In this document: positions 33,635 through 37,602 of the stretch, in pieces
How positions within the stretch are numbered: the stretch's first letter is position 1
Layout: each line of letters begins with the position of its first letter
NCBI RefSeq assembly: GCF_000373925.1
Contig: NZ_KB892812.1
Span: 179-64,178, forward strand
Origin: Actinopolymorpha alba DSM 45243
Lineage (GTDB): Bacteria; Actinomycetota; Actinomycetes; Propionibacteriales; Actinopolymorphaceae
DNA: 64,000 bases
Reading direction: 5' to 3'
Program-made: the position numbers and the translations under genes
Notes under the pieces: generated by a model
What the model saw: only the letters and a program-made list of their open reading frames with translations
Databases searched by the model: none
Told to the model about the DNA's origin: nothing

Positions 33635-33701
33635 TCATGATGGTTGTCATGAACGTCAAGCGGACGGATAGCCCGCTTTGGCTTCATGATCACCGTGGCC
33701 G
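33634..33701. repeat. TGATCATGA-type inverted repeat, copy 1
   Basis: Starting at the HAD stop, TGATCATGA opens and TTCATGATCA closes an element with an internal hairpin-like AAGCGGAC...CCGCTT; TCATGA recurs inside and after. Reverse strand reads TGATCATGAAGCC...CGGGCT, the same phrase as the copy at 47362. Both copies directly follow a stop codon, so they may act as terminators. Confidence 0.65.
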
Positions 33702-33704
33702 CTC

Positions 33705-34153
33705 ATGACGTCCCGCCGCCAACGCGTCGGTGCGTACGCCGTCTGCCTCGACGCCACCGGCCAACTCCTGCTCTGCTGTATGTCAGGGCCGGTCGGGCCT
33801 GGAGATTCTTGCGTGCCGGACTGCTCGCAGGCTCCCTTGACGTCTCGTCACGCAAGAATCTCCAGGCCCTCCCTTTATGTTCGGAGGAGGCCGCGGTGCG
33901 GGAACTCGCGGAGGAGACCGGGCTGACCGGGCGGGTGGACCGGCTGCTCGGCGTACACGCTGGCCTCTACACGATCAACGGCGTCTCGATCCACGGCGTA
34001 CGCCTCCTCTATCTGGTTGACGTCATCGCTGGATCGCTCCGGCGTGAGCAGGACGGCGGAACCGACGATGCGGGATGGTTCGGCCCCGAAGCGCTCGAAG
34101 CGCTATCACTGTCGGCCCACGCCCACCACGCACTCGCACTGCTGGATCACTGA
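33705..34153 (+). pseudogene. NUDIX hydrolase interrupted by an inverted-repeat element
   Basis: The N-terminal frame from ATG 33705 encodes RQRVGAYAVCLDATGQLLLC, then CMSGPV, a normal NUDIX start. The C-terminal frame, from about 33880, encodes EEAAVRELAEETGLTGRV (second half of the NUDIX box) and a complete tail to 34153 (GVRLLYLVDVIAG, DDAGWFGPEAL). Between them lies a 75-bp element with 21-bp inverted repeats; the frames do not match and the glycine-rich first half of the NUDIX box is lost, so insertion came with a deletion. Not expected to be active. Confidence 0.8.
33795..33869. repeat. 75-bp element with perfect 21-bp terminal inverted repeats
   Basis: Arms 33795-33815 (GGGCCTGGAGATTCTTGC...) and 33849-33869 (...GCAAGAATCTCCAGGCCC) are exact reverse complements with a 33-bp spacer. 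No ORF fits inside. It sits within the NUDIX box codons. It looks like a small non-autonomous mobile palindrome (MITE-like). Confidence 0.75.
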
Positions 34154-34435: not shown

Positions 34436-34999
34436 ATGACCGCCGCACAACCGTTGGAGGTGCACCTGCCTGGGCGGGCACTCACCCTTGACGACGTGGC
34501 CGAGCTCGCGGCTGCCGACGAGCTGCACCGTTACGAACTCGACGAGGGAAACCTCCTGGTCATGCCTCCAGCGGATGCCGAACACGCCGCGATCATCACT
34601 GGGCTACTTGTCTGGCTGGTGACGAATGGACATGACCGGAACCGGGTGCTGAGCACCCCTGGCGTGAAGATTTCCGAACGGTCGTCGGGTCGCAGCCCAG
34701 ATCTGGTCCTGCTGCGCAGGTCTGTGGGAAGGACGGTGTGGATCGACCCGATCGACGTGGCGCTCGTCGTCGAGATCGTTTCGGAAGGGTCGAAGAAGCT
34801 CGACCGCATGGTCAAACCGAGTGAGTACGCCCAGGTGGGGATCGCGCACTACTGGCGCGTCGAGGGCGGCGAAGGGCTCAGCCCGACCGTGCACATGTAC
34901 ACGTTGGGTGCCGGAGAGGACGGCGAGCCGGCCTACATCGGGCACCGCGCCGTCCTGCTGGACGAACTACTCGCCGGCAGGCCAGAAGGCGTGATCTAG
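34436..34999 (+). CDS. Uma2-family endonuclease (DUF820)
   Basis: A 187-residue protein of the Uma2 family, which has a restriction-nuclease-like (PD-(D/E)XK) fold. YELDEGNLLVMPPADAEH, then RSPDLVLLRR (Asp) and VALVVEIVSEGSKKLDR (Glu-x-Val with downstream Lys) give the expected catalytic pattern, and YAQVGIAHYWRV is the conserved C-terminal motif. GACAGGAGG precedes ATG 34436. These genes are very common in actinobacteria and their role is unclear. Confidence 0.9.
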   Translation: MTAAQPLEVHLPGRALTLDDVAELAAADELHRYELDEGNLLVMPPADAEHAAIITGLLVWLVTNGHDRNRVLSTPGVKISERSSGRSPDLVLLRRSVGRTVWIDPIDVALVVEIVSEGSKKLDRMVKPSEYAQVGIAHYWRVEGGEGLSPTVHMYTLGAGEDGEPAYIGHRAVLLDELLAGRPEGVI

Positions 35000-35078: not shown

Positions 35079-35108
35079 TTGCCGTTTCTTGGACAGCCGG
35101 CCTACGCT
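35079..35108 (+). promoter_or_regulatory. Promoter for the metG leader transcript
   Basis: TTGCCG (35079-35084), an 18-bp spacer and TACGCT (35103-35108) form a SigA-like promoter. Six bases after the -10 is ATG 35115, so transcription should start at or near the leader ATG, making the leader peptide leaderless. Confidence 0.6.
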
Positions 35109-35114
35109 GACCGC

Positions 35115-35198
35115 ATGACGTTCCGGCAGCAGCTCCGCATTCGCCCAGAGGGTAGGCCCTCTGTCGCGTGTGCCCAGGAGATGATGCGGCCCCGCTAG
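35115..35198 (+). CDS. Putative metG leader peptide with tandem Met codons
   Basis: ATG 35115 to TAG 35196-35198 encodes 27 residues ending AQEMMRPR. The two Met codons (35181-35186) abut the 5' arm of a hairpin (35186-35205), and the stop codon falls at its loop. This is the layout of amino-acid-sensing leader peptides, with the amino acid matching the downstream gene, methionyl-tRNA synthetase. Translation is inferred; 27 codons could be open by chance. Confidence 0.5.
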   Translation: MTFRQQLRIRPEGRPSVACAQEMMRPR

Positions 35199-35252
35199 GG
35201 GCCGCCTGCGTGCCGTATCCACTGCTCGAAGGCCCCTCGCGGAGGGGCCTTC
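35186..35252 (+). terminator. Candidate ribosome-mediated attenuator upstream of metG
   Basis: Hairpin 1: GCGGCCCC (35186-35193), loop GCTA, GGGGCCGC (35198-35205). Hairpin 2: GAAGGCCCCTC (35228-35238), loop GCG, GAGGGGCCTTC (35242-35252), a perfect 11-bp terminator-like stem. The 3' arm of hairpin 1 (AGGGGCC, 35197-35203) is complementary to GGCCCCT (35231-35237) in hairpin 2, giving an antiterminator. A further 7-bp hairpin (35146-35163) lies in the leader ORF. No U-tract follows. Confidence 0.55.
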
Positions 35253-35306
35253 TGCGTATCCGTCTCAGCCGGGCCCACTTCGCAAGGTTTCGCGAAAGGA
35301 AGCCCG

Positions 35307-36899
35307 ATGCCCAGACCGCCGAAGCGGTTCTACGTCACCACCTCGATCCCGTACGTCAACGCCGACCCGCACCTCGGATTCGCGCTCGAGTTGATCGAGG
35401 CCGACGTCCTCGCCCGACATCGCCGGCTGCGCGGGGACCAGGTGCGGTTCCAGTCCGGGACCGACGACAACGCTCTCAAGAACGTCCAGGCCGCCGAGCG
35501 CGCCGGCGTACCCGTGCAAGCTTTCGTTGACACGCACGCGGATGCGTTCGAGGCGCTCAGCGGGGTTCTGAACCTGTCGTACGACGACTTCCTGCGTACC
35601 AGCAAGGATCCCCGCCATCGTCCGGGGGCCGAACGCCTGTGGCGCGCGTGTGCCGCCGCCGGTGATCTCTACCGCCGCCACTACGAGGGGATGTACTGCG
35701 TCGGGTGCGAGCGGTTCTATGCCCCGGACGAACTCGTCGACGGCTTGTGCCCGGACCACGACACGCCGCCGCAGCCCGTCAGCGAGGAGAACTGGTTCTT
35801 CCGGTTGTCCCGCTACGAGGAGCCACTCCGTCAGTTGCTCGACAGCGGCCGGCTCCGGATCGAGCCGAAGGTCCGCGAGAACGAGGTTCGGGCGTTCATC
35901 GAAAACGGCCTGAACGACTTCTCCATCTCCCGGACCGTCGACCGCGCCCGCGGCTGGGGCGTGCCGGTCCCCGATGATCCGAGCCAGGTGATGTACGTCT
36001 GGTGGGACGCGCTCGGCAACTACATCACCAGCCTCGACTACGGAGAGGGCGCGGACGCCGAGGGGTTCGACACCTGGTGGCGGAAGAGCGACCGGCGGGT
36101 CCACGTGATCGGCAAGGACATCCTGCGGTTCCACGCGATCTACTGGCCGGCGATGCTGCTGTCGGCGGGGCTTCCGCTGCCGACGGAGATCTTCGTCCAC
36201 GACTTCCTTACGGCGAACGGCCGGAAGTTCAGCAAGTCACTGGGGAACGTCGTCGATCCGGGGTGGCTGACCGAGGAGTTCGGTGTGGACGCGGTGCGCT
36301 GGTGGCTCGCCGCGAAGGTGCCGAAGGTCGGCGACACGGACTTCACCGTCCAGCGTCTTGTCGACGCGGCCAACCGCGACCTCGCGGGTGGTGTCGGCAA
36401 CCTCGCCCAGCGGGTGGTGAGCATGGTCCATCGCTACCGCGACGGTGTCGTACCCGAGGCGGTGAACGACGACGAGCCGGCCACCCGGCTACGGGCCCAC
36501 GCAACGGCGCTACCGGCACGGATCGATCGGGCGCTGGCAGCGTTCGACCTGCGAGCCGCCGCGCTCGCGCTGCTGTCATTGGTTGCCGAGGCGAACCGCT
36601 ATGTCGAGGACACCGCACCATGGGTGCTGGCCAAGGCGGATCGGTCCGGCGATGTCGATGCGCGCCGCCAGCTCGATGTCGCTCTCAGTGCCCTCGTCGA
36701 CACGATCCGGATTCTCGCCGCCGAGCTGGAGCCGTTCGTGCCAGAACTCGCGGCGCGGTTGGCGTACCAGCTCCAACCCCTTGCCCCACAAGGGGTTCTG
36801 CCACCACCGGAACCGGTGTTCCCGAGACTCGAGGTGGAGCCTGGGGAGAAGATTGCACCTTCGTCTGGCTTATTCGTTAAAGTGCGGACTCGTGCCTAG
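35307..36899 (+). CDS. metG: Methionyl-tRNA synthetase, divergent type
   Basis: A 530-residue class I synthetase. The HIGH motif appears as HLGF (VNADPHLGFALELIEADVLA), the zinc knuckle as CVGC...CPDH, and the KMSKS loop as KFSKSLGN. WWDALGNYITSLDYG and HVIGKDILRFHAIYWPAML are MetRS-specific. There is no C-terminal tRNA-binding extension. Actinobacteria often carry such a second, divergent MetRS besides the housekeeping enzyme, so this may be a paralog, perhaps inhibitor-tolerant. AAAGGAAG precedes ATG 35307. The candidate attenuator at 35115-35252 would make expression respond to Met-tRNA supply. Confidence 0.9.
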   Translation: MPRPPKRFYVTTSIPYVNADPHLGFALELIEADVLARHRRLRGDQVRFQSGTDDNALKNVQAAERAGVPVQAFVDTHADAFEALSGVLNLSYDDFLRTSKDPRHRPGAERLWRACAAAGDLYRRHYEGMYCVGCERFYAPDELVDGLCPDHDTPPQPVSEENWFFRLSRYEEPLRQLLDSGRLRIEPKVRENEVRAFIENGLNDFSISRTVDRARGWGVPVPDDPSQVMYVWWDALGNYITSLDYGEGADAEGFDTWWRKSDRRVHVIGKDILRFHAIYWPAMLLSAGLPLPTEIFVHDFLTANGRKFSKSLGNVVDPGWLTEEFGVDAVRWWLAAKVPKVGDTDFTVQRLVDAANRDLAGGVGNLAQRVVSMVHRYRDGVVPEAVNDDEPATRLRAHATALPARIDRALAAFDLRAAALALLSLVAEANRYVEDTAPWVLAKADRSGDVDARRQLDVALSALVDTIRILAAELEPFVPELAARLAYQLQPLAPQGVLPPPEPVFPRLEVEPGEKIAPSSGLFVKVRTRA

Positions 36900-37602
36900 A
36901 ATCCGACTTGCGCTTGCCTTTGTCGCGGCCGGTGCGATCGTCCTTGCCGGATGTAGCTCCGACGAGCCCGAGACCACCGGTGCCCAGCAGCAGACCAAGG
37001 ACGACGTTCCCGCCCAGGTTGCCAACGAGAAGCCTTCCGAGGACAAGAAGAAGCCCACTCCCGCCCAGCTGAAGTCAGCGGTCGGCAAGGTGGTCCTCGG
37101 TGAAGGTGACATCGGCCATGATGTCGAGGTCCAGGACCAGGACGACACCCTGGAGGCCGCGACCAACGACATCTGCGCCAAGGACTGGTCCGGCGACAAC
37201 TCCCGCATTGCCCGCAACCAGGACTTCTTCTGGAAGTCCGCGCGCCAGGCCAAGCTGGTCGTCAGCAACGAGGCAGTGGCGTACCAACCCGGTAAGGGCT
37301 CTGCCGCGATCGCCGAGCTCAAGCAGGCTGCCGCGGAGTGCAACACCTGGAAGCACGACCAGGGCACGATGGGCAAGGTCCACATCGTCGACCCGCCGAA
37401 GGGTGCGCTCGACGGTTCGTTCGCGTGGCAGGGCAGTGACGACCGCAAGGGCGTCGAGTACTCCTACGTTGCCGTCTACCAGACCAAGGACGATCTCCTG
37501 AGCGCCCTCTACGTCTGGGCACCCAGCGAGAACGAAGCCCGCGATGTCGCCGCGGAGCTTGCTCCCAAGGCCGCGCAGCGACTGGAGAAGGCGCTCGGCT
37601 GA
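36892..37602 (+). CDS. Lipoprotein, possibly PknH-sensor-like
   Basis: A 236-residue lipoprotein: LALAFVAAGAIVLAGC is a signal peptide with lipobox LAGC. A charged, Lys/Glu-rich linker follows, then a domain with two further cysteines (ATNDICAKDW, AAAECNTW) that could form a disulfide, resembling PknH-type sensor lipoproteins of actinobacteria. GTG 36892 overlaps the metG stop by eight bases. The family call is tentative; surface location is firm. Confidence 0.8.
   Translation: MPRIRLALAFVAAGAIVLAGCSSDEPETTGAQQQTKDDVPAQVANEKPSEDKKKPTPAQLKSAVGKVVLGEGDIGHDVEVQDQDDTLEAATNDICAKDWSGDNSRIARNQDFFWKSARQAKLVVSNEAVAYQPGKGSAAIAELKQAAAECNTWKHDQGTMGKVHIVDPPKGALDGSFAWQGSDDRKGVEYSYVAVYQTKDDLLSALYVWAPSENEARDVAAELAPKAAQRLEKALG

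Follow-up and report, generated by a model that had tools for sequence, protein, structure and literature searches.

A predicted methionine-sensing attenuator in the leader of an auxiliary methionyl-tRNA synthetase gene in Actinopolymorpha alba and related actinobacteria

Introduction

Transcription attenuation by a stalled ribosome is textbook knowledge for Trp, His, Leu, Phe, Thr and Ile/Val. The Actinobacteria were surveyed systematically in 2005: candidate attenuators or leader peptides were listed for trp, leu, ilv, cys, trpS and leuS, the last two being the only synthetase genes among them, and methionine operons were preceded by no RNA structure that was conserved (PMC1262725). Leaderless leader peptides for Leu, Trp, Ile, Thr and Met have been mapped in Streptomyces lividans, the Met one lying before metNIQ, and leaderless leader peptides were also described there for several aminoacyl-tRNA synthetase (aaRS) genes, none of them for methionyl-tRNA synthetase (MetRS) (PMC8079986). 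The same work reported actinobacterial attenuators without a U-tract, so a U-tract was not treated as a defining feature of the group in the current study.

A known case is the trpRS1 (trpS2) attenuator of Streptomyces (Vecchione and Sello 2010, J. Bacteriol. 192:3565, cited in PMC4787780); an attenuator was predicted for S. avermitilis trpS2 (PMC1262725), and a leaderless trpL2 is known (PMC8079986). The locus analysed here resembles trpRS1 in being actinobacterial, in having a short, apparently leaderless leader, in preceding a second aaRS copy and in carrying codons for the amino acid which that enzyme charges. Unlike trpRS1, it has Met-Met in place of Trp, would control MetRS, and would depend on a Met signal that is also tied to the initiator.

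Three further systems are comparable. The leaderless polycysteine attenuators of mycobacteria (Canestrari et al. 2020, cited in PMC9094748) likewise consist of a leaderless short ORF with tandem codons, but involve Cys and other operons. The putative metL leader before metNIQ of S. lividans (MSTTSDRTPATEATTTPGARCMCRRMCAF, PMC8079986) is also leaderless, Met-containing and actinobacterial, but it controls Met import rather than MetRS, its Mets are separate and it has no clear terminator; no comparative support for it was seen in the sections of PMC8079986 bearing on metL. Finally, uORFC-8-2 before cysS of Rhodobacterales (PMC8632094) also has tandem codons for the amino acid that the downstream aaRS charges and was read as ribosome-mediated attenuation, but concerns Cys and CysRS in Alphaproteobacteria.

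No Met/MetRS attenuator was found in Rfam or in the open-access literature searched; most subscription papers were outside the scope of the search, and an earlier prediction is not excluded. The mechanism proposed below thus belongs to a known type; what is new is the amino acid and the target.

Results

Leader locus. The window, i.e. the whole stretch of DNA analysed, comprises 64,000 nucleotides of Actinopolymorpha alba DSM 45243. An earlier note, made from the sequence alone, had described a plausible promoter, a short ORF with Met-Met, two hairpins and a 7-bp alternative pairing upstream of metG, and these elements held base for base (Table 1). The -10 box is separated from the leader ATG by 6 nt, and the leader peptide ends with Met-Met-Arg-Pro-Arg (MMRPR). 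The 5' arm of the protector hairpin begins at the second Met codon, and the UAG stop codon (35196-35198) is located within the loop of the same hairpin. The nearest upstream gene (Uma2-like) ends 115 nt before the leader ORF. The leader folds more stably than shuffled sequences (z = -4.4). No U-tract follows the 11-bp hairpin, as judged from the sequence and a terminator scan, and a scan of the window region for a consensus sigma-70 promoter and a U-tract terminator gave no match, as expected because the group is GC-rich.

Table 1. Coordinates of the leader, the genes that follow it and the predicted regulatory elements in the window.
Feature	Position	Strand	Evidence
-35-like element TTGCCG	35079-35084	+	Sequence; weak, conservation not shown
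-10 element TACGCT	35103-35108	+	Sequence; 18-nt spacer from TTGCCG
Leader peptide ORF, 27 codons, MTFRQQLRIRPEGRPSVACAQEMMRPR and stop	35115-35198	+	Sequence; orthologous 9-28-codon leaders with internal Met, 51/51 loci
45-nt in-frame insertion in leader ORF	35129-35173 (boundaries approximate)	+	Comparison with MTFRHQEMMRPR leaders
Tandem Met regulatory codons	35181-35186	+	Met-Met in 45/51 orthologues, at least one internal Met in the other 6
Protector hairpin (region 1:2), 8 bp	35186-35193 with 35198-35205	+	Folding and per-locus pairing
Region 2, antiterminator 5' half, 7 bp	35197-35203 with 35231-35237	+	Combined p 4e-8, 24 representative loci
Terminator-like hairpin (region 3:4), 11 perfect pairs, loop GCG	35228-35238 with 35242-35252	+	Folding; equivalent hairpin in orthologues
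Auxiliary methionyl-tRNA synthetase (metG), 530 aa	35307-36899	+	TIGR00398, 418 bits
Putative lipoprotein gene, GTG start overlapping the metG stop	36892-37602	+	Sequence

The downstream gene. The assignment of metG as the controlled gene held and could be refined, since the window metG is a second, auxiliary MetRS; the canonical enzyme (39% identical) is encoded on another contig. The closest named relatives are Actinopolymorpha pittospori and A. rutila. Both enzymes were present in all examined genomes of the window's family, and in some of family f3. The actinobacterial auxiliary MetRS proteins form one clade, and the leader was found in every sampled member. In four genomes (G094, G208, G273 and G224) the gene behind the leader was the only MetRS above the family cut-off, and there the switch would govern an essential housekeeping enzyme.

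Conservation of the Met codons. All 51 actinobacterial orthologues examined had, at the same place, a short leader ORF containing an internal Met, and 45 of these had tandem Met-Met. Examples are MTFRHQEMMRPR (Actinopolymorpha), MNSFRHEVMMRPA (L014), MNSFPSQQMMPR (L017), METLVRLGMMARLWGR (L018), MNTAQRMMGPLVGLFVVR (L020), MTQCTQPMMRPVRGPLRVR (L135) and MSTARVTAEAASPRMMLMSMPSGLFRAS (L119). The remaining six comprised five with a single internal Met and one (L137) with three separate Mets; leaders of this kind include MTAQVMTTR, ..PTMRPSAG.. and MTRVCLTMTSRMTM... As a finding that would refute the idea, the earlier note had named the absence from relatives of the Met codons or of the alternative pairing. 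This was checked, and the idea survived.

The arrangement exceeds what chance would give. A Met-Met ORF was absent upstream of canonical MetRS genes (0/16 regions), no leaderless Met-Met ORF occurred in 414 kb of actinobacterial control sequence, and there was no second leaderless-looking Met-Met ORF on either strand of the window. With a covariance model built without the window, this leader was the best match in the whole genome (E = 8e-12). Among the weak matches of model R1 outside metG, one was the Trp attenuator of an auxiliary TrpRS (L176), and the others, lying in or antisense to coding sequence, were judged to be noise.

Promoter spacing. In 50 of the 51 orthologous loci, the leader start codon followed a TANNNT motif at a distance of 6-8 nt; of the 693 other start triplets in these regions, only 1 did so. 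Transcription therefore probably begins at the leader start codon. The claim of a leaderless transcript thus held, but indirectly: it is very likely correct, with start sites inferred from the -10 spacing.

Alternative pairing. Each locus had a GC-rich, terminator-like hairpin after the leader ORF, the 5' arm of which can pair with the segment following the Met codons. The arm sequences differed between lineages while complementarity was kept (e.g. GGGGCC/GGCCCC, CGGCCTT/GAGGCC and AGGGGCC/GCCCCT). Region 2 starts about 5-11 nt after Met-Met in most actinobacterial loci, and about 11-23 nt after it in the g48 and L132/L137 lineages, where additional Mets are present. As is known from ribosome footprints, the RNA is covered up to roughly the start of region 2 when a Met codon occupies the A site. 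In 24 representative loci, which are not fully independent, the antiterminator pairing was supported (Fisher combined p 4e-8). Support for the protector pairing in the same representatives was weaker (p 4e-5); in the window, its perfect 8-bp geometry fits a ribosome positioned on the Met codons. Taken singly, only about half of the loci showed an antiterminator pairing that differed significantly from shuffled sequences, since chance pairing between GC-rich arms is easy. RNAalifold recovered only 4 terminator pairs from a MAFFT alignment of 15 leaders because the lineages align poorly; covariation was therefore left out of the evidence, and pairing was tested locus by locus.

Folding of the window RNA that had emerged up to 35243, with its first part hidden by a stalled ribosome, gave the antiterminator as the minimum-energy fold (-18.5 kcal/mol). 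When the ribosome was placed at the stop codon instead, the terminator had the lowest energy. After region 4 has emerged, the terminator state (-28.7 kcal/mol) is favoured over the antiterminator state (-25.4 kcal/mol) by about 3 kcal/mol, so the switch must act during transcription. In relatives, U-tracts follow the hairpin in L041, L043, L051, L052, L085 and others.

Insertion in the window leader. The leader ORF has 12 codons in other Actinopolymorpha and 27 in the window. The 15 additional codons (45 nt, in frame) are located upstream of the Met codons and contain a CAGAGGG/CCCTCTG hairpin; despite the insertion, the window leader keeps every part, including everything from CAGGAG ATG ATG onward. 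The 45-nt insertion was not found in other Actinopolymorpha leaders. An origin as a repeat element was rejected, as it is present in a single copy in the genome.

The surroundings of the leader also differ. In the window, a NUDIX gene (33686-34153) and a Uma2-family gene (34436-34999) separate the metG leader from a HAD hydrolase gene. The HAD gene of other Actinopolymorpha appears to end directly 5' of the leader, and the two genes therefore appear to be inserted in the window.

A sister element and wider distribution. A Trp-Trp leader, MNTFRLQEWWAA, lies a few kb from metG in G017 before an auxiliary TrpRS, where it was matched by model R1. A leaderless Trp-Trp leader and hairpin with the same layout preceded the auxiliary TrpRS in 23/23 orthologues of this order (L180-L202). 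The window genome has its own, MRTQRFLGWWAA, before its second TrpRS (G000:C95 near 128748-129719; L191). This element matches the known Streptomyces trpRS1 attenuator and is, by analogy, the best guide to the function of the Met-Met leader.

Met-rich leaders were also found in Ktedonobacteria, in 22 of 23 regions upstream of MetRS (L205-L227), e.g. MLAMMPMCMPMSQMMTMVCRSVSCFSPCISPGSLKR; in 21 leaders, 17% of the internal residues were Met. U-tract terminators were present in those Ktedonobacteria MetRS loci that were inspected. As these leaders fall in two separate MetRS clades, the arrangement was probably acquired more than once. Single examples of a Met-containing leader before MetRS were seen in Kouleothrix (L052), a Hyphomicrobiales MAG (L051) and a Gemmatimonadota MAG (L085).

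Discussion

The ORF, the Met codons, the -10 spacing, the hairpins and the alternative pairing, together with their conservation, are established by sequence and comparison. The trp-type reading with Met made in the earlier note is supported by this comparison, whereas the start site, translation, stalling, termination without a U-tract, the physiological signal and regulation remain inferred. A second refinement, besides that of metG, concerns the known leaderless attenuators, for which the note had cited Cys in mycobacteria; other amino acids are represented in S. lividans (PMC8079986). Two of the criteria of a trp-type attenuator are fulfilled, namely a leader ORF with cognate codons (51/51 loci) and the mutually exclusive 7-bp 2:3 and 11-bp 3:4 pairings. 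The best explanation, which we consider very likely in spite of the absence of experimental evidence, is that the leader is a ribosome-mediated transcription attenuator of this type, which senses charged elongator tRNA-Met and controls the auxiliary MetRS.

According to this model, transcription would start at the leader AUG, and a 70S ribosome would begin translation at once behind RNA polymerase. When Met-tRNA is plentiful, the ribosome would reach the UAG and cover region 2, or be released so that the protector 1:2 forms; by either route the 11-bp hairpin 3:4 would form and transcription would stop before metG. When Met-tRNA is scarce, because cells are starved of Met or their main MetRS is inhibited, the ribosome would wait at Met-Met and cover region 1 (to about 35194-35197). 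Region 2, left free, would pair with region 3 before region 4 is made, and the polymerase would read through into metG, so that more Met-tRNA would be charged. A counterpoint is that Met is also the initiating residue: a severe shortage would cut initiation at the leader and favour termination.

Of the alternative explanations, the one that survives best retains the same leader peptide but proposes Rho-dependent termination or control of metG translation, the ribosome position setting access to a rut site or to the metG start. It is supported by the missing U-tract of the window hairpin and by S. lividans leader peptides noted to have no typical intrinsic terminator (PMC8079986). This explanation is unlikely, since a compact GC-rich hairpin lies between leader and gene throughout, with U-tracts in some relatives, and the alternative pairing targets the 5' arm of that hairpin.

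A second alternative is that the leader responds to an antibiotic rather than to Met-tRNA, by nascent-peptide stalling, for example at the R-P-R (+x+) tail as in macrolide leaders. The MMRPR end of the window peptide is in its favour, and second aaRS copies often give inhibitor resistance. It seems improbable, however, as the tail varies (MMPR, MMTR, MMSS, MMTP, MMAPLL..) and Met is the constant residue; moreover, the TrpRS sister elements have Trp-Trp at exactly that position, and the Ktedonobacteria leaders have many Mets without such a tail.

A chance arrangement, in which the terminator of the upstream gene lies beside a fortuitous ORF without any regulation, could be suspected because GC-rich palindromes are common in such genomes and the Uma2-like gene ends so close to the ORF. 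It can be virtually ruled out, since 51 loci from several families, with different genes upstream, share the orthologous leader, its Met codons, the -10 box and the hairpins, and neither the canonical MetRS regions nor the 414-kb background contained the arrangement.

A T-box or SAM riboswitch with an incidental ORF, suggested by the role of both in controlling methionine genes elsewhere and by a T-box-like GGTGGTACCGCG before MetRS in L044 (Anaerolineae), can practically be dismissed, as no Rfam family, T-box and SAM included, matches the window region or 17 relatives, and the leader is too short for a T-box. In L044 itself, GGTGGTACCGCG and a U-tract terminator precede a MetRS that groups with the attenuator-bearing ones, with no Rfam match at the gathering score.

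Taking the Met attenuator as the preferred reading, a conserved Met version before MetRS fills the gap left by the 2005 survey and offers a switch that is clear and can be tested. It further suggests a way in which actinobacteria call on a second MetRS during starvation or inhibition of the main enzyme; a spare TrpRS is known to give indolmycin resistance in Streptomyces, which provides a parallel. A question of principle is raised as well, namely that of a Met-tRNA sensor whose own translation start needs Met-tRNA.

We lean slightly towards a bolder reading in which two statements hold jointly: that Met attenuators of MetRS arose repeatedly and are widespread, and that Actinobacteria use one interchangeable leaderless cassette. 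The range would include Actinomycetota, two Ktedonobacteria MetRS clades and probably other Chloroflexota, Alphaproteobacteria and Gemmatimonadota, and the codon pair of the cassette (Met-Met or Trp-Trp) would be matched to whichever aaRS follows. If this reading is true, the switch would have to work while initiation is limited, because Met also begins every protein, and would be a test case for the separation of elongator and initiator Met-tRNA pools.

In a subgroup of one family (L147, L148, L150 and L151), a single Met replaces Met-Met and the hairpins are kept; these loci may possibly represent a natural series of weak sensors.

The putative lipoprotein encoded directly after metG had no Pfam match. 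Its gene is likely to be cotranscribed with metG and hence under the same switch, this co-regulation being inferred. A sequence similar to this gene is also located 3' of metG in relatives.
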